From Deltaproteobacteria bacterium (lineage in GTDB: Bacteria; Desulfobacterota; Desulfobaccia; Desulfobaccales; Desulfobaccaceae), in assembly GCA_019309545.1 (NCBI GenBank), contig JAFDGA010000019.1, positions 1 through 45,329 of the forward strand: DNA of 45,329 bases. Reading direction: 5' to 3'. The notes below the pieces were generated by a model. The model worked only from the letters and a program-made list of their open reading frames with translations. It did not search any database and was not told the DNA's origin. A program made the position numbers and the translations under genes. Below are positions 2,716 to 29,602 of this stretch, one piece after another; position 1 is the stretch's first letter, and each line of letters starts with the position of its first letter.

Positions 2716-3731
2716 GGTGCTTCCTCCGTCTCAGAGGTGGGCGGGGGTGTTGGCCTCTGGCCCAGGTGGTAAATATCCCGGATCTGATCTTCCAGGCGAA
2801 CCATCAGGTCGGGATGGTCTCGCAGGTAAATTTTGGCATTCTCGCGTCCCTGACCGATCCGCTCCTCTTCATAACTATACCAGGCACCGCTCTTCTTGAT
2901 GATCTCCAGGTTGGTGGCCAGATCCAAAATATCTCCCTCTTTGGAGATGCCCTGGCCAAAGACCATGTCAAATTCAGCCTCCCTAAACGGCGGCGCCAGT
3001 TTGTTTTTGACGACCCGCACCCGGGTGCGGTTCCCTATAATGTCATGCCCTTCTTTGATGGGAGTGCCTTTGCGAATATCCAGGCGTTGCGAAGCATAAA
3101 ATTTCAAGGCATTGCCCCCGGTGGTGGTTTCCGGGTTGCCGAACAGTTGGCCGATTTTCATGCGGATCTGGTTGATAAAGATCACTGAAGTCTGGGACTT
3201 GCTGATGGCGGCAGTAAGTTTGCGCAAGGCCTGGGACATCAGCCGGGCCTGGGAGCCCATCTGGGCGTCGCCCATCTCACCCTCGATTTCGGAGCGGGGC
3301 ACCAGGGCCGCCACCGAGTCGATCACTGCCACATCCAGAGCATTGGAGCGCACCAAAATCTCGGCGATTTCCAAGGCCTGTTCCCCGGTATCAGGCTGGG
3401 AAATGAGCAGATCATTAGGCTTAACTCCCAGACGCCGGGCATAGTTAAGGTCCAGAGCATGCTCGGCATCGATAAAGGCGGCCAAACCTCCGTAACGCTG
3501 GGCCTCGGCAATGATATGGAGGGCCAGGGTGGTCTTGCCCGAAGCCTCCGGGCCAAAGATCTCCACTACCCGGCCGCGGGGAATGCCGCCGATGCCCAGG
3601 GCCAGGTCCAGGGATAAGGCTCCGGTAGAAATCACCCCGATGTCGGCCACTTTTTCCTCTGCCCCTAACCGCATGATTGAACCGCGGCCGTATTGCTTCT
3701 CAATCTGACCCAGGGCCTGCTCGCTTCTCAA
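2712..3731 (-). CDS. recA: Recombinase RecA, 5' end disrupted by a tandem duplication
   Basis: DNA-dependent ATPase for homologous recombination and SOS induction. Walker A GPEASGKT is at residues 60-67 of this frame, and the core and C-terminal domains are complete. The open frame can begin only at a TTG (3731). The natural start is very probably ATG at 3789: it has AGAGGA eight bases upstream and opens with [20 protein letters not shown], a textbook RecA N-terminus. A perfect 28-bp tandem duplication (3695-3750) then shifts that frame into a TGA after 29 codons. With one repeat copy removed, a 349-residue RecA reads through. TTG 3731 has no clear ribosome site and would lose about ten residues of the N-terminal oligomerisation helix. 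Either the assembly is wrong or the cell carries a real, revertible frameshift. Confidence 0.93.
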
Positions 3732-23328: not shown

Positions 23329-24033
23329 CTAATCATCCCGGGTAAGGGTTATGCCATTACCGGTGAGGATAAAATAATGTTCATGAGCACAGGCCAGACA
23401 GGTTGGTTTCCCATCCCGCAGGCATACCCGGGTCTCCATGATCTCTTCCTCACAGATACTACAGGGCAGCGAAGCAAAGATCCGGGCATATTCGGGCATA
23501 TTGATGGTCAGATGTTGAATATTAAACTGCTCCTCCAGGGGAGTCTGCAGTTCTTTCCGGGCCATGGCGTGCCACAGGTGGTGCAGCCGGTGATGGTCTT
23601 CCTCGTTGCCTTGCCGGTCAACTATTACTTTCTTGAACAAGGGGCCGGCGGCCGGATATTTTTCGAATAGCCGCTGCCGGAAACCGGGCTTGACCGCCAA
23701 CCGGACCGCCACGCCATCCTCGCGGCGGGCGACGGTTACCGCGGTCTTGCCCAGGTCTTTGAAAATCAGGGCGTTATTGCCAAAGGTGCAACCGGTTACG
23801 GTCTGGATGCCATCGGTAAAACAATTATTGCATTCTACAATCGCCACTACCTCTTCCATACCGGTATTTTTCCGGTTTAAGGTGGTCATGGCATACTGTC
23901 CGGCCTGAATCCCCCAGGCCACCCCAGGGCACAGATGGCCGTGGATGGTCTCGGTATGGCGGAGCAATCCCTCCAGATCGCCGCTGCGAATCATGGTTTC
24001 AATGGCCCGGCGGGCCTCAGCAAATTCGTGCAT
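23329..24033 (-). CDS. FmdE family protein with C-terminal zinc ribbon
   Basis: A 234-residue protein. The FmdE domain shows HGHLCPG (H31, H33, C35), VECNNCFTDGIQTVTGCT (C68, C71, C82) and GKTAVTV. The C-terminus has a treble-clef/zinc-ribbon CxxC-x17-CxxC (C191, C194, C212, C215). The name comes from a protein linked to molybdenum formylmethanofuran dehydrogenase, but non-methanogens have many homologues with unknown, probably metal- or Fe-S-related roles. AGGAGG lies nine bases before the ATG. It is the last gene of the exbB-exbD-tonB-receptor-flavin reductase series, suggesting handling of the imported metal. Confidence 0.9.
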   Translation of the reverse strand: MHEFAEARRAIETMIRSGDLEGLLRHTETIHGHLCPGVAWGIQAGQYAMTTLNRKNTGMEEVVAIVECNNCFTDGIQTVTGCTFGNNALIFKDLGKTAVTVARREDGVAVRLAVKPGFRQRLFEKYPAAGPLFKKVIVDRQGNEEDHHRLHHLWHAMARKELQTPLEEQFNIQHLTINMPEYARIFASLPCSICEEEIMETRVCLRDGKPTCLACAHEHYFILTGNGITLTRDD

Positions 24034-24131: not shown

Positions 24132-24743
24132 TCAAGGTTCGTATTTATGGGCCAACGGATCCTTCCCATTAGGGAACATTGACCCATACAGTTCGAATTT
24201 ATTGATTTCCACTACGGTGCAAAATTTCATTCCCTTATCGTTGCCGGTCATCATCAGGGGCCGGGCCTTTCTGACATCCAGGGAGCCATCAGGCAGATAT
24301 ACCGCATCGTCCACCTCCAGATGCACGACCTTCCCCGTAATGAGCACGTATTGGGGCTCGGCGTAGGCTTTATATAATTGACATTCCATCCAGGCATAGC
24401 AACCCGCTATCCCCGGGGGCTTGATTTGCACCGAGGGTTTGACACTTAACCCCGCCACCTCGAACTCATCCACCTCTGGGGGGCTGTAGCGGGCGGTGGG
24501 GATTACCTTATCGGCCAACTCCAGTCCGGGAAAGTTCAACACAAACTGCCGGGTGGTCCGGATATTGTTCAGGGTGTCCCGCCGATGGGCCGAGGCCACA
24601 CAGACCAGATCCAGTGGGCGTAACACCGGCATCACGCAGGAATAAGGAGCAATGTTGCGAACGCCCTCGGCACTGAGGGTCGAAATAAAGGCCACCGGTA
24701 GCGGCATGATTGATTCTCTTTTAAAAGGGTTCAAGATCATCAT
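24132..24743 (-). CDS. Flavin reductase-like FMN-binding protein
   Basis: A 203-residue split-barrel flavoprotein of the flavin reductase (DIM6/NTAB) family. Recognisable parts are [38 protein letters not shown] and the C-terminal [11 protein letters not shown]. Such proteins bind FMN and act as NAD(P)H:flavin or metal-chelate reductases, or as flavoredoxins in sulfate reducers. ATG 24743 (or the next ATG, 24740) is preceded by AAAGGAAATC. Its place after the TonB receptor makes reductive release of metal from an imported chelate an attractive role, but that is not shown by the sequence. Confidence 0.9.
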
Positions 24744-24804
24744 GATTTCCTTTGCTTATATTAAGTATCATTCATCCTGAATGCCAGGCCAAATTTGGGA
24801 ACCA

Positions 24805-24842
24805 GGTACTAACGGACAGTACCGGCGGTAGCCGGTGTACTG
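24805..24842. promoter_or_regulatory. Overlapping alternative hairpins between receptor and flavin reductase genes
   Basis: GGTACT (24805-24810) pairs with AGTACC (24818-24823). The second arm is also part of CAGTACCGGC (24817-24826), which pairs with GCCGG and TACTG (24831-24842, two bases bulged). The two stems exclude each other, like an attenuator or processing switch. It lies 20 bases after the receptor stop and about 60 bases before the flavin reductase start. No U-tract follows on the minus strand. Confidence 0.5.
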
Positions 24843-24862
24843 GGCCACTGGTTTCCCGAAGA

Positions 24863-27037
24863 CTAATAGCGTAGTTGAATGCCTCCATATATCGTTTGCG
24901 TGGGCAGCGGGAATCCGGCGCTTTCCTCGTAGAATTCGCCAGTGAGATTCTCAACTCCACCGTAGAGATAGCCCCTCATCCCGCCCTTTTGTACCACCGG
25001 ATACCGGCCTTCCAAATTAAGAGTCATAAACCCCTTCATCGGTCGCAGTCCCACCCCGGTAAGCTTGTTGAGAATTACTTGAGCCTCCGGGTAATAGCGG
25101 TGGGAAACCATTCTGATATAAGCCTTGCCTTCGGCTCCATTGTTAGCCTTATATTTCAATCCCAGATTAAATTTGTGGTCCGGATACTCGGGTAGTTCTC
25201 GGATATCTCCACTTAAAGGATCAGCGCTGGTGCTGGTCTGCTGCCAGGTATAATTGGCAAAGGCGGAAAGATTGTAAGGCAGTCCTACCTCGCCCTCGAC
25301 TTCCACCCCCCGCAGTTTGACCAGATCGATGTTGTAAACCACCCGGCTAGGACGATAGCCGAACACGGTACGGATATATTGGTTGATATCGTAGTAGTAA
25401 CCTCGGACTCGGAGCACAGAGTTCCAGGGCAATTTCTGGGTCACCCCGGCTTCATACTGCATGCCGAACTCCGGTGATAAACTGCCGCCGCGGTTGGGAG
25501 GTTGGTAGCCGCCGCCGAACCAGTAAAACTCCGGTTGGGTGGGATAACGGGTGGCATAATTGACCGATATATAACCCTCGGTGGTGTCGGTGGGCCGGAA
25601 GGTCAAAGTACTCTTGGGCACCAAGCCATCCTTGCTGATCCCGTATACAAATGTGCGTGAAGCTGGGTTGATATTTGGAGAGGCTATATAATTATCATAG
25701 CGCAGCCCCAGGTAAAGCTCCATAAAACTCGCCAGAGGCAGCGTCGCCTCCACATAGCCGCTTTGAATCTTCTGGGCGTTCTTGATTCCCGAGCCATCGG
25801 TCGGTACAAACCGAAAATAGGTGGGATCGATATATTCATAGCTAAAACCGCCATACCCATAATAAACTCCTTCCAGGCCAAAACCCACCGGGACCTTGCC
25901 CAACCAGGGGACCTGGTTTAGGGTCTGGCGACATCTGAAGTTCCAGCCCCAGGTATCATCGCAGCCGGCGCCGCGCTGGCAAATGAGTTTGTTGCGGTCG
26001 TCCAGGGCATAAAAACGGTCCAGCCGGGATTCCTGGTTATAATAGAGCTTAAATTCTGCCTCGCCGGCCCAGAGCTTTTTAATCGCGCTGAGGTCAAGTT
26101 CGGTGCGCTGATTAAAGATGTAACTGTTATCTCCGAAGGTTTTGGCGCCGCCCAAAAAGGGCAGGCCCGGGCCGCCCAGGTAATTGTAGTCGCCGCGCGG
26201 TTCATTGGGGCGGAAGAAGGGTAAGTAATCCTTATTTTCCACAATCATACCGTTTTCCAGGGCGCTGTAACGACCCGCCAGGGTCAGGCTTAGATCCCAG
26301 GGGCACTCAAACGTCAGGCTGCCGTTCACATCCCAGCGGTCAACATAGTTGTTGCGCAAATAACCGGAACTTTTGCCGTGGCCGGCGCCGAAGGCGTAGA
26401 GCACTGGCCCAAAGCCATAAGAATGGCTGAACCGATAGGTTTGGGTATCCCAACTGCCATAGGAGGCATCGAGGGCAACCTTGGGCACTCGGCTGCCTTT
26501 GGAGGTGACAATATTGATCACGCCGCCCAGGGTGTCGCCATAGGCTGCGGATTGGGCGCCGCGGATGATCTCCACCCGCTCAATGTCCTGAAGGGGGATC
26601 ATCGACCAATCCACATAGTACCCGCCCATCACCCCGGTGGCCTTTATACTCCGGCCATTGAGATTGATCTGCGAACGTGATTCATCCAGACCCCGGATCG
26701 ACACCTGATGGTTGTTGCGGCCTAACAATGATTGCCGGCTCAGGTCCACCCCGGCCTGGTCTTCAAAAGCGCCTTGGATGGTTTGATAATAGCCCAGATC
26801 GATTTCCTCTTTTCCAATGATAGTGCTGGTCGGAGTTTCTTCTGGGACTGCCACTACTTCAATAGTCGGCAACTCTTCTATCTTCTTCACCTTTTCCGGC
26901 TCAGAGGCTATCTTTGCCTTTTCTTCCTCTCCGGCCGGAGTCTTCCCGGACGGCTCTTCCCCGAAAGCCGCCAGGGGCAATACCAGAATCATTAAGATCA
27001 CCAGAGTCAACGATTTGAACATCCTGCCAGCCAACAT
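24863..27037 (-). CDS. TonB-dependent outer-membrane receptor
   Basis: A 724-residue receptor. The signal peptide MFKSLTLVILMILVLPLAAFG lies near the N-terminus, then a charged Glu/Lys-rich linker and a possible TonB box ELPTIEVVA. The plug domain carries VSIRGLDESRSQINLNGR and VEIIRGAQSAAYGDTLGGVI. A 22-strand type beta barrel follows, ending in an aromatic residue (IQLRY). The long frame starts at 27085, but AAGGAGAAGGAGAAA directly before ATG 27037 decides the start. Substrate unknown: a siderophore, cobalamin or other metal chelate. It follows exbB-exbD-tonB, so the system carries its own energising complex. Confidence 0.95.
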   Translation of the reverse strand: MLAGRMFKSLTLVILMILVLPLAAFGEEPSGKTPAGEEEKAKIASEPEKVKKIEELPTIEVVAVPEETPTSTIIGKEEIDLGYYQTIQGAFEDQAGVDLSRQSLLGRNNHQVSIRGLDESRSQINLNGRSIKATGVMGGYYVDWSMIPLQDIERVEIIRGAQSAAYGDTLGGVINIVTSKGSRVPKVALDASYGSWDTQTYRFSHSYGFGPVLYAFGAGHGKSSGYLRNNYVDRWDVNGSLTFECPWDLSLTLAGRYSALENGMIVENKDYLPFFRPNEPRGDYNYLGGPGLPFLGGAKTFGDNSYIFNQRTELDLSAIKKLWAGEAEFKLYYNQESRLDRFYALDDRNKLICQRGAGCDDTWGWNFRCRQTLNQVPWLGKVPVGFGLEGVYYGYGGFSYEYIDPTYFRFVPTDGSGIKNAQKIQSGYVEATLPLASFMELYLGLRYDNYIASPNINPASRTFVYGISKDGLVPKSTLTFRPTDTTEGYISVNYATRYPTQPEFYWFGGGYQPPNRGGSLSPEFGMQYEAGVTQKLPWNSVLRVRGYYYDINQYIRTVFGYRPSRVVYNIDLVKLRGVEVEGEVGLPYNLSAFANYTWQQTSTSADPLSGDIRELPEYPDHKFNLGLKYKANNGAEGKAYIRMVSHRYYPEAQVILNKLTGVGLRPMKGFMTLNLEGRYPVVQKGGMRGYLYGGVENLTGEFYEESAGFPLPTQTIYGGIQLRY

Positions 27038-27078
27038 TTTCTCCTTCTCCTTTCTCTCCAAGTACGCAGTTAAACGTT

Positions 27079-27107
27079 TTGACAACGCCTCCCTACTCTG
27101 TTAGAAA
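27079..27107 (+). promoter_or_regulatory. Predicted plus-strand promoter in the receptor leader
   Basis: A perfect TTGACA (27079-27084) is followed after 17 bases by TAGAAA (27102-27107, four of six consensus bases). It points away from the receptor gene toward the terminator-like hairpin at 27148-27187. Start of transcription would be near 27114. Confidence 0.4.
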
Positions 27108-27113
27108 AGGAGC

Positions 27114-27187
27114 CAGGGACCGTTGTCTAACCCGAGCGCGGTTCCAGAGAAGGCAGCTATCCTTGGCCGAGGGGCTGCCTTCTTTTT
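27114..27187 (+). ncRNA. Candidate antisense small RNA in the tonB-receptor spacer
   Basis: A transcript of about 74 bases would start near 27114 from the TTGACA-17-TAGAAA promoter and end in an intrinsic terminator. Its first half folds with GGGACCG pairing to CGGTTCC (one G-U pair). Its second half is a ten-base stem AGAAGGCAGC/GCTGCCTTCT with further pairing in the loop and CTTTTT after it. It is antisense to the untranslated spacer of the exbBD-tonB-receptor message. Prediction only; the hairpin might instead act in the minus-strand mRNA. Confidence 0.35.
27148..27187 (+). terminator. Strong intrinsic terminator hairpin, plus strand
   Basis: AGAAGGCAGC (27148-27157) and GCTGCCTTCT (27174-27183) pair perfectly, the loop CCTTGGCCGAGG adds a few pairs, and TTTTT runs to 27187. 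The T-tract exists only on the plus strand, although both flanking genes are on the minus strand, so it cannot be the normal terminator of tonB. Confidence 0.6.
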
Positions 27188-27232
27188 CCCGGCCAAAGCA
27201 CACTGGCTAATGCTGGGTGCTTACCTCCTTTG

Positions 27233-28033
27233 CTAACTCCCTACCAGGCGGAAAGCCAGCGGCACCTCAATAGTGAGCTGTGACTTCTGCAACGCTACCG
27301 GTAGAGGCGGAAACCGACCCACCCGCCTAACCGTATCCTGGGCCGCCTGATCCAGCACCGGGTGACCCGAGGATCGCAAGATGCTCTTGGACTTGATCTG
27401 GCCGCTGGCGGCAATGGTAAAGCGCAAGACCACCACTCCCTCCAGCCGCTGCCGGCGGGCCATTGAGGGATAATTCTTGTGGCGCTGCAGCAATTGCCGG
27501 ACGCCGGACAAATAGTTGCTCAGGATCGAACCGGAGCCGAAGCCTGACCTTGCCCCGGAGCCGGAACCTGACCCCCGCCCGCAACCTCCACCAGAACCTC
27601 GACCATACCCCCGCTGAGAGGTGGGGCCCTGGCCGGTTGATCTGGCAGCATAAGTTGGCAAATTTTTCGGCGCCGGAACTTCGGGCCGGGCCATGGCCAG
27701 TGAAGGGGGGGGTGGAACCGGCTCGCGGCGGGGCCGGCGCCGGACAGTGCTTCTGGGTTTAGGTCGCCTTGGTACTACCTTGGGTTTAGGTTGCGGTTTA
27801 GGTTTCACTTGCGGTGGTGGCGAACTACCGCCCCCGGCCGCGGGGCCGGGACGGGCGCAGGTCAGGGTAATGGGTTCCACGACCACCACCCGCTTAGGCC
27901 GCGGTCGATCCTGGTAAAAAAGCAGTGCCCCACCCAGGATCATCCCGTGTAAAATGAACGACATCAGCACCGGAATAGTCCAGTCCAGCAGTCCCGGGCG
28001 GGAATTGCCAAATCTCAGGCTTGCCATCGCCAA
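27233..28033 (-). CDS. tonB: TonB family energy transducer
   Basis: A 266-residue periplasm-spanning protein anchored by one N-terminal membrane helix (about residues 15-40). Next is a Pro/Lys/Arg-rich stretch (about 70-115) and an unusual Gly/Ser/Arg-rich linker (about 140-170). The C-terminal TonB domain has YPSMARRQRLEGVVVLRF and PVLDQAAQDTVRR. It carries proton-motive energy from ExbB-ExbD to the receptor encoded next. The frame starts with TTG 28033, with AGGA seven bases upstream and only three bases after the exbD stop. ATG 28027 is an alternative with a worse site. Confidence 0.93.
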   Translation of the reverse strand: MAMASLRFGNSRPGLLDWTIPVLMSFILHGMILGGALLFYQDRPRPKRVVVVEPITLTCARPGPAAGGGSSPPPQVKPKPQPKPKVVPRRPKPRSTVRRRPRREPVPPPPSLAMARPEVPAPKNLPTYAARSTGQGPTSQRGYGRGSGGGCGRGSGSGSGARSGFGSGSILSNYLSGVRQLLQRHKNYPSMARRQRLEGVVVLRFTIAASGQIKSKSILRSSGHPVLDQAAQDTVRRVGRFPPLPVALQKSQLTIEVPLAFRLVGS

Positions 28034-28036
28034 TCT

Positions 28037-28432
28037 TTAATCCTGGTCCACCTCGATGCCAATCCGCTGCACCTGTAAGCGCTTGAGTCGATCAATTACT
28101 TCAATTAAGCGGCCATGGCGGGCCTCTTTATCCGCGGCAATCACTGCCTGGGGACCATCTCCCGGTTTCTGACTCAAAAAGACCGCCTCGAACTGATCGT
28201 CCTGGGCTAACCGGACGCCATTGATAGCAATTCCACCCTCACGGTCAATACTGATGATGATCGGCACTTTTTCCATCTTGTCGGCCTGGGTGGCTTTGGG
28301 TAAGGCAATGGAAAAGGTGCGGGGCATCATCACCGTGGCAGTAATCAGAAATATGATCAGGATGACCAGGACAATATCCACAAAGGGAGTCATATTGATC
28401 TCGGTAATGGGGCCGTGAATCTGACCTTTCAT
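28037..28432 (-). CDS. exbD: Biopolymer transport protein ExbD/TolR family
   Basis: A 131-residue inner-membrane protein with one helix near the N-terminus (about residues 17-37) and a periplasmic domain. The start includes [20 protein letters not shown], with the conserved membrane aspartate (D19) that takes part in proton flow. It partners ExbB and TonB. Its ATG overlaps the exbB stop (ATGA, 28429-28432), with GAGG inside exbB as ribosome site. Confidence 0.94.
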
Positions 28433-29103
28433 CGCCGTGCCTCGCTTCTCGGTTGAATAGCACTGATGTTGGTTGCCTGTGGTTGGGGATTAAGATTGGT
28501 AAGCAACAGGCGCCCCAGACGTTGGGAGCGTTCCAGGACCACATGCAGACGGCTATGGAAGTAGTTGTACATCACTACTGCCGGTATGGCCACCAGCAGA
28601 CCCACCGCGGTAGCCACCAGGGCCTCGGCGATCCCCGCCATGACCGCCGGGCCGCCCCCGTTTTCCGTCAGGGCCAAGTCTTTGAAGGCATGAATAATAC
28701 CCAAAACCGTGCCGAACAGGCCAATGAAGGGGGCATTGGCTCCCAAAGTGCCCAAAAAAGGGAGCCGCTTGCCGAGCAGCAGGCCGATGCGGATGCGCTC
28801 GCTCTCCATGGCTTCCCAGACGGCCTCTTTGCCCTGTTCGACCTGCCTGAGCCCGGCATACAATACCTGGGGTTCCAGGGCCGCTTCTGCCTCACAACGG
28901 TCCCGAGCCTGGGACCAGGCCTCCTGCTCCATTAGCGGTCCGATATCATCCACAAAGTGTTCTTCGTTGAACCGGCCGCGATAAAATACCAGCCCCCGTT
29001 CAATCATCACTGCCACCGAAGCGATGCTGAGAATGATAAGCAGCCACAACACCCAGGCACTGCCCCCCAAAGCCAGGTTCAGCAAGGTCTTGGTAATATC
29101 CAT
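28429..29103 (-). CDS. exbB: Biopolymer transport protein ExbB/TolQ family
   Basis: A 224-residue polytopic inner-membrane protein of the MotA/TolQ/ExbB family. The first helix is at about residues 14-34 and two more flank the conserved cytoplasmic/periplasmic turn, with [21 protein letters not shown] and [19 protein letters not shown]. It forms the proton channel that energises TonB. The frame is open from 29163, but GGAGGCAATTCC before ATG 29103 ([10 protein letters not shown]) marks the real start. First gene of the uptake operon exbB-exbD-tonB-receptor. Confidence 0.95.
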
Positions 29104-29602
29104 GGAATTGCCTCCAAAAAAAACCATGAAGAGGTTTGCCCTTGACCGGGCACCTGCCTTCATGGCTTGGATTAAGCTAATTAAATTTTCAGCTAAATAA
29201 AATTTGAAAAATTATCAGGAAGTTCGTCTCCCTTACTATTACTGTTGTTTATCCCAAAAGGGCTGGAAATGTCAATCAAATTTTACCGGGGTTATTTTAT
29301 TGGCTATATCCACCTTATGCCAAAGGGTGTCGCCTCCCTGGGGGAAATCCAAAGGGTTGCTTCTACCAGGAATCCCATTAACCAACCGTTTTTTGGAAGT
29401 CGAACCCCAGCGCTGAGGCTCAGGGGAGGTTAATTTTAATGGTAAAATCAATTTGCATGGGTTATAAATTAATATTTAAACTATTATATTTTCAGACCGG
29501 GGGGTCACCTCCTCCCCTACTAAGGAAAAACATATTCTATGTCCTCCTTAATAAAGGGTTTCCCTTTTGAGAGACGGAATTCCGATTGACTGAACGAACA
29601 TA
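29104..29602. other. 499-base divergent spacer between exbB and msbA
   Basis: No credible gene; two short plus-strand frames (from 29204 and 29245) lack ribosome sites and family resemblance. It contains the predicted exbB promoter (29248-29275), CCAAAGGG motifs at 29320 and 29349, an AT-rich block at 29430-29485 likely to hold the msbA promoter, and small palindromes in the msbA leader: TAAGGA/TCCTTA (29521-29550), AAAGGG-TTT-CCCTTT (29553-29567) and CGGAATTCCG (29575-29584). GGGGTCACCTCCTCCCC near 29500 slightly resembles an inverted dispersed repeat. Confidence 0.6.
29248..29275 (-). promoter_or_regulatory. Predicted promoter of the exbBD-tonB-receptor operon
   Basis: On the minus strand TTGACA (29275-29270) and GATAAA (29253-29248) are separated by 16 bases, giving a start near 29241 and a leader of about 138 bases. 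The spacer contains CCCTTTTGGG, and ACCCTTTGG motifs occur twice upstream with a 29-base period, which look like regulator sites. The signal (metal starvation, for example) is not readable from sequence. Confidence 0.45.

Follow-up and report, generated by a model that had tools for sequence, protein, structure and literature searches.

PreQ1-II and SAM-II are translational pseudoknot riboswitches, and the cobalamin riboswitch (RF00174) is a leader element of TonB-dependent receptor (TBDR) genes, whose products determine which scarce metals and cofactors Gram-negative cells import. A survey, "The discovery of novel noncoding RNAs in 50 bacterial genomes" (PMC11109978), reports rare structured leaders, among them the gcsH motif in Desulfobacteraceae, and NikR sites and known riboswitches have been described in delta-proteobacteria (PMC545781). 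Judged from the comparisons given here, we rate a conserved structured leader RNA of about 112 nt in a TBDR message, element B, as a new class among structured regulatory leaders. It is a discovery of the same kind as the leader motifs of PMC11109978, whose main text contains neither "TonB" nor "receptor," and the available parts of PMC11247825 and PMC545781 describe no leader that resembles element B or its frequent companion, element A. A literature search conducted largely without subscription papers and without bioRxiv preprints found no description of either element.

No Rfam 15 family reached its gathering cutoff in the window, the whole 45,329-nt stretch of DNA analyzed here. With E values of up to 10 admitted between positions 26900 and 27400, the only riboswitch was a sub-threshold sul1 match that lies elsewhere than element B. 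Over element B, all Rfam matches were below threshold: DUF805b (14.3 bits versus 35.6), PhotoRC-I (17.8 versus 45, at locus L005), and mir-351 (27 versus 70, at locus L063). Like the cobalamin riboswitch, element B lies in the leaders of TBDR genes, but it has no RF00174 match of its own. The RF00174 covariance match was found only at one locus (L044, plus strand, 2080 to 2267, 109 bits), where it lies upstream of an element B copy (2442 to 2555) that precedes a TBDR gene; this tandem arrangement indicates that element B is a separate unit. Like preQ1-II and SAM-II, element B is a structured leader that ends near the Shine-Dalgarno (SD) region and has a loop that can pair with that region. Unlike them, it has a P1 hairpin, a UUUCUANCAGA loop, and a CAAA tail that are peculiar to it, and one subtype, type II, lacks clear loop:SD pairing.

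The window carries the gene row exbB-exbD-tonB-receptor-flavin reductase-fmdE on the minus strand. The genes are exbB (28429 to 29103, Pfam MotA_ExbB, with the start taken as the ATG at 29103, behind element A), exbD (28037 to 28432, Pfam ExbD, E = 2e−26), tonB (27233 to 28033, Pfam TonB_C, E = 2.2e−21), the TBDR gene (24863 to 27037, start ATG at 27037 to 27035, Pfam Plug, E = 1.3e−17), and, downstream of the receptor, genes for a flavin reductase-like protein (24132 to 24743, Pfam Flavin_Reduct, E = 8.1e−22) and an FmdE-like protein with a C4 zinc finger (23329 to 24033, Pfam FmdE, E = 4.8e−40). The gene calls thus agree with the earlier note, which had placed both neighbors of the spacer, tonB upstream and the receptor, on the minus strand. 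The 200-bp tonB-receptor spacer is present once in its own genome, and a dispersed repeat was therefore rejected as an explanation for it.

Element B occupies positions 27077 to 27188 of this spacer on the minus strand, where it scores 102.7 bits with R1, a covariance model built from nine orthologous receptor leaders, and 95.7 bits with R2, a model built from 27 copies. The leaders of orthologous receptors in relatives contain the same two hairpins as the window. P1 pairs a 5′ arm, AGAAGGCAGC (27174 to 27183), with a 3′ arm, GCTGCCTTCT (27148 to 27157). P2 has a 5′ arm at 27110 to 27127 (lower part GACAACG, 27121 to 27127; upper part CCCTGGCTC, 27110 to 27118), a loop with an anti-SD tract, GCTCCTTTTCTAACA (27099 to 27113), and a 3′ arm at 27081 to 27098 (upper part GAGTAGGG, 27091 to 27098; lower part CGTTGTC, 27081 to 27087) that is followed by AAAA (27077 to 27080).

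Covariation was found in two alignments, A4 and A8; because both were fitted to the structure of the model, their pair counts are biased toward it, and they were judged by shuffled and slid controls. Two-sided changes with pairing kept occurred in all 24 pairs of A8 (43 aligned matches), and 86.0% of its cells were paired. Its covariation was 0.533, compared to 0.204 when shuffled and at most 0.161 when slid, and 0 of 500 shuffles reached the score. P1 was the clearest on its own, with two-sided changes in 10/10 pairs, 93.0% of cells paired, and covariation of 0.615 versus 0.206 shuffled; for the nine pairs of the upper P2 helix, covariation was 0.478, compared to 0.227 in shuffles and no more than 0.178 with slid partners. 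Lower P2 is less certain (72 to 74% of cells paired). Outside the helices, conservation peaked at UA in the P2 loop (36/36) and CAA in the tail (35/36) among 36 deduplicated copies, which are A8 minus two R2 matches (L044:393-462 and L035:1564-1632) and five near-identical rows. Covarying columns off the structure seem mostly to track subfamily splits. A third helix between P1 and P2, formed by ACCG of the linker with CGG, can be drawn in many copies, and its mean z of only −0.64 (n = 27) leaves it unproven. On comparison of its copies, element B has the covarying secondary structure that marks a cis-regulatory leader RNA.

R1 found element B in 14 of the 29 genomes of the window's own order and in 21 of 297 genomes of a phylum sample at an E value of 0.01; R2 found it in 46 of 395 phylum genomes at the same E value, numbers that come from wide searches with strict filters and so may miss weak copies. 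At 35.7 bits or more with R2, there were 32 copies in 24 of the 395 genomes, spread over eight families. The next open reading frame (ORF) was recorded for 56 of the 61 R2 matches, five of the weakest being omitted; among these 56, 7 lacked an ORF. The first downstream ORF was a TBDR gene in 30 of the 32 copies at or above 35.7 bits, and the two others were followed by a flavin reductase (genome G012) and by a SPASM-domain ORF (G004, which belongs to the same family as the window genome). Among the weaker hits with an ORF, 6 of 17 next ORFs were TBDR genes, which suggests that some are genuine weak copies and the rest are chance matches. In control searches, the best R2 score was 27.3 bits among 77 genomes from the phylum of the L083 genome (titled uncultured Nitrospirae), and among 299 genomes from the phylum of the L071 genome (titled Commensalibacter) it was 25.0 bits. 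A pattern scan of genome contigs returned 13 stretches, of which 5 had a strong R1 match and the others look like chance. The receptor start codon lies a median of 23.5 nt after element B (30 copies). By this comparison, element B precedes a single kind of gene, at a constant position and in a constant orientation.

Not every TBDR gene of the genomes with element B is preceded by it, and R2 detected no element B at the receptor loci L104 to L109 and L112, although inspection by eye shows a divergent copy at L104. At the G012 locus (L118, contig C92, about 24700 to 25250), elements A and B lie before a seemingly decayed receptor, of which there are short remnants only, and then comes the flavin reductase gene. 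The G004 copy (L103, plus strand, 3158 to 3273, 64.2 bits) precedes radical-SAM/SPASM ORFs, with a TBDR-like ORF about 5.7 kb farther on. Other copies of element B in G004 include those at 1415030 to 1415138 and 2790871 to 2790982.

The loop of P2 in the window is pyrimidine rich (CUCCUUUUCU) and complementary to the SD region of the receptor, AGAAAGGAG (27047 to 27055, minus strand), its predicted partner, with a predicted pairing energy of −14.9 kcal/mol. Across copies, loop:SD energies were matched by 0 of 100 sets of shuffled loops, and pairing was strongest over the SD and weakened into the ORF. Copies were divided, after the data had been looked at, into type I, to which the window belongs, and type II, which has a GCAAA tail, and the permutation test used the 33 of 41 copies with a placeable start. 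The loops of 15 type I clusters were predicted to pair better with their own SD than with those of other clusters (−12.06 versus −10.97 kcal/mol), a modest effect that 97 of 5,000 permutations equaled. In 11 type II clusters, there was no loop:SD covariation (own −5.34 versus cross −5.76; 4,233 of 5,000 permutations), and the anti-SD reading therefore falls short of the whole family. Within type I, partners that differ in sequence still match, as for CUCCUCC with GGAGGAG at L039 and CUCUUCUUCU with AGAAGAGG at L037. Of 29 copies, 20 had lower predicted SD accessibility with element B than without it, 8 had higher, and 1 was unchanged; in the window, the predicted unpaired fraction of the SD was 0.19 with element B and 0.66 without it. 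Start distance, accessibility, and loop shuffling were calculated without the copies at G012:C92:24984 and G004:C1:127157, and the last two also without that of G254, which has an uncertain start. Automatically chosen starts were wrong for a few copies, and these were corrected manually before the accessibility and loop:SD analyses. The 3′ arm of P1 was considered as an alternative anti-SD and rejected, as it did not covary with the SD (72 of 300; own −12.61 versus cross −12.49).

The comparison of copies demonstrates the structure, orientation, and position of element B before receptors in many genera, and in type I the P2 loop is complementary to the SD of its own receptor and, to a modest degree, varies with it. 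Given the loop:SD fit and the drop in accessibility, we consider it probable that element B regulates translation in cis as a minus-strand leader RNA, situated immediately before the receptor ribosome binding site, with a P2 loop able to cover the SD. The P2 loop would pair with the SD as a pseudoknot and hold receptor translation down, and a signal, which might be a metal, a tetrapyrrole or corrinoid, a protein, or an antisense RNA, would shift the balance through the P1 loop, the P2 loop, and the CAAA tail. Receptor level could in this way be set apart from that of ExbB, ExbD, and TonB encoded on the same transcript. A receptor leader RNA common to at least eight families of the phylum would represent a new layer of uptake control.

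The earlier note had instead read the plus strand of the spacer as a gene for a small RNA antisense to the receptor leader. The motifs on which it relied are there: direct reading of the sequence gives TTGACA (27079 to 27084) and TAGAAA (27102 to 27107) at a spacing of 17 nt (27079 to 27107), and the plus-strand RNA from 27110 to 27190 is predicted to form two stems (−39.4 kcal/mol, z = −3.71, as good in 0 of 200 shuffles), including a 10-bp terminator-like stem (27148 to 27157 with 27174 to 27183) within a hairpin that ends in T5 (27146 to 27187; T5 at 27183 to 27187). The minus-strand RNA from 27188 to 27077 is also stable (−44.8 kcal/mol, z = −2.86). The hairpin is the complement of P1, whose 5′ arm corresponds to the terminator-like 3′ arm. 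Between 26000 and 28500, promoter-like sites were at chance level (2, compared to 1.3 ± 1.5 expected), and there were 5 terminator-like sites (2.7 ± 1.4 expected), two of which are the same hairpin in two registers. The promoter at 27079 to 27107 did not appear in the consensus scan, because that scan demands a T at the end of the −10 box. In all likelihood, the promoter- and terminator-like motifs mirror element B, which lies on the minus strand; if element B is an anti-SD leader, the "−10" TAGAAA would be the complement of its anti-SD loop. The case illustrates how a promoter and terminator that look perfect can reflect an RNA encoded on the opposite, sense strand.

A cis-encoded antisense RNA, as it is still conceivable here, would start at a plus-strand promoter inside element B, run for about 75 nt to the complement of P1, and pair with the receptor leader, either besides the sense leader or in its place. 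The complement of element B resembles such RNAs in its promoter-like and terminator-like parts; such RNAs are defined by an antisense transcript, which here would be putative, and P2 is left unexplained by this reading. The conserved geometry TTG-17-TGnTAnAAA speaks for the antisense reading. Among the 41 copies that remain in A8 without L044:393-462 and L035:1564-1632, the complement-strand position frequencies gave an exact TTGACA in 23, TTG in 38 (second T and G each 38/41), the exact 17-nt spacing in 38, a nearly invariant TG, and TA in all 41. A T-rich tail, present in 22 of 32 copies, the stable plus-strand fold, and the mismatches of P1, which lean to the antisense strand (G-U:A-C = 6:13, cluster weighted, in the same 41-row set), are further points in its favor. 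Against it, only 2 of the 41 copies have a −10 box ending in T; a −35 box within one mismatch (19/32) and the T-rich tail occur together in just 11/32; the T-run is absent from the sister species G001; and type II copies retain the fold and the helix and lack TTGACA. The 3′ arm of P2 is the −35/−10 spacer and its 5′ arm lies beyond the proposed antisense start, so an RNA starting at 27114 would lack a complete P2. Covariation of the P2 arms would require a single transcript that spans both, which could be the receptor leader or else an antisense RNA longer than the one proposed, and the cluster-weighted G-U:A-C ratio of 38:18 in upper P2 favors the receptor strand. A real conserved RNA structure bearing on the receptor leader has thus been borne out, while the strand and the kind of molecule named in the earlier note are probably wrong; we regard an antisense RNA as unlikely.

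Two other accounts were weighed. The hairpins could be a processing or stability element of the operon, a cleavage site or a protection of the receptor 5′ end by which receptor mRNA would outlive exbBD-tonB mRNA with no ligand involved. Cells generally require more receptor than ExbBD-TonB, and the window copy sits between tonB and the receptor gene, as the copies at L055 and L056 sit directly behind a small ORF. Yet in relatives, for example at L004 to L008 and L010, element B stands after element A and ahead of the receptor without an intervening gene, and therefore it is not intercistronic there; moreover, the conserved unpaired UA and CAA, together with the loop:SD covariation, exceed what a protective stem would explain. 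We give this account little credence. To our mind, it is very improbable that element B, rather than being a ligand-binding RNA, serves as a binding site for a regulator acting in trans, such as a CsrA-like protein or a trans-encoded small RNA. GGA motifs in the linker and in the P1 loop of many copies would suit such a target, as would the proximity of element B to the SD, but the P1 loop, the P2 loop, and the tail are conserved jointly in a 112-nt two-hairpin fold, which is more than a simple protein site calls for.

Element A, a second uncatalogued leader motif, lies before exbB at 29116 to 29234 on the minus strand and scores 50.6 bits with its own model, R3. It consists of a hairpin with an NNGAA loop plus a terminator whose conserved 5′ arm, GCCAYGAAGGC, could also fold on its own into a small AYGAA-loop hairpin. 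There are 4 pattern copies in the window's own genome, R3 matched all 29 genomes of its order at an E value of 0.001, and the pairs show modest covariation (0.264 versus 0.176 shuffled). The ORFs that follow element A, among the 30 matches listed at about one locus per genome (further loci L084, L085, L087, and L135 to L164), encode TBDR (11), Phenol_MetA_deg (4), CbiM (3), tetrapyrrole methylase (3), DUF4198 (2), ExbB (2), DUF3842 (1), and flavin reductase (1) proteins. Element A resembles a twin-hairpin antitermination switch of nickel/cobalt uptake genes. In relatives, elements A and B often stand in tandem.

A tentative possibility is that element B represents a new class of riboswitch, one that responds to a metal or tetrapyrrole cargo (nickel, cobalt, a corrinoid, or a heme-like compound) and gates receptor translation, in series with element A as a new twin-hairpin nickel/cobalt antitermination switch. 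If so, element A followed by element B in one leader would place transcription control first and translation control second. Receptors with element B adjoin tetrapyrrole-methylase-like, CobN-like, BtuF-like, DUF4198-like, and CooT-like genes (assigned mostly by eye, some by Pfam), and elements A and B before nickel/cobalt, tetrapyrrole-methylase, CobN-like, and CooT-like genes would yield a short list of candidate ligands. Receptors without element B lie beside similar genes, so this neighborhood is only a hint as to the ligand; as a predictor of element B it was rejected, since the receptors at L105 to L108 lack the element near the same kinds of genes. At L054, L055, and L056, small ORFs that resemble the CooT nickel-binding family by eye end directly before element B, and the one at L056 follows a TonB-like C terminus. 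The receptor rows L101 and L105 of G004 include, by eye, MotA/ExbB-like, DUF2149-like, and large exported CobN-like genes, an arrangement that we take to be reminiscent of hmu heme uptake operons.
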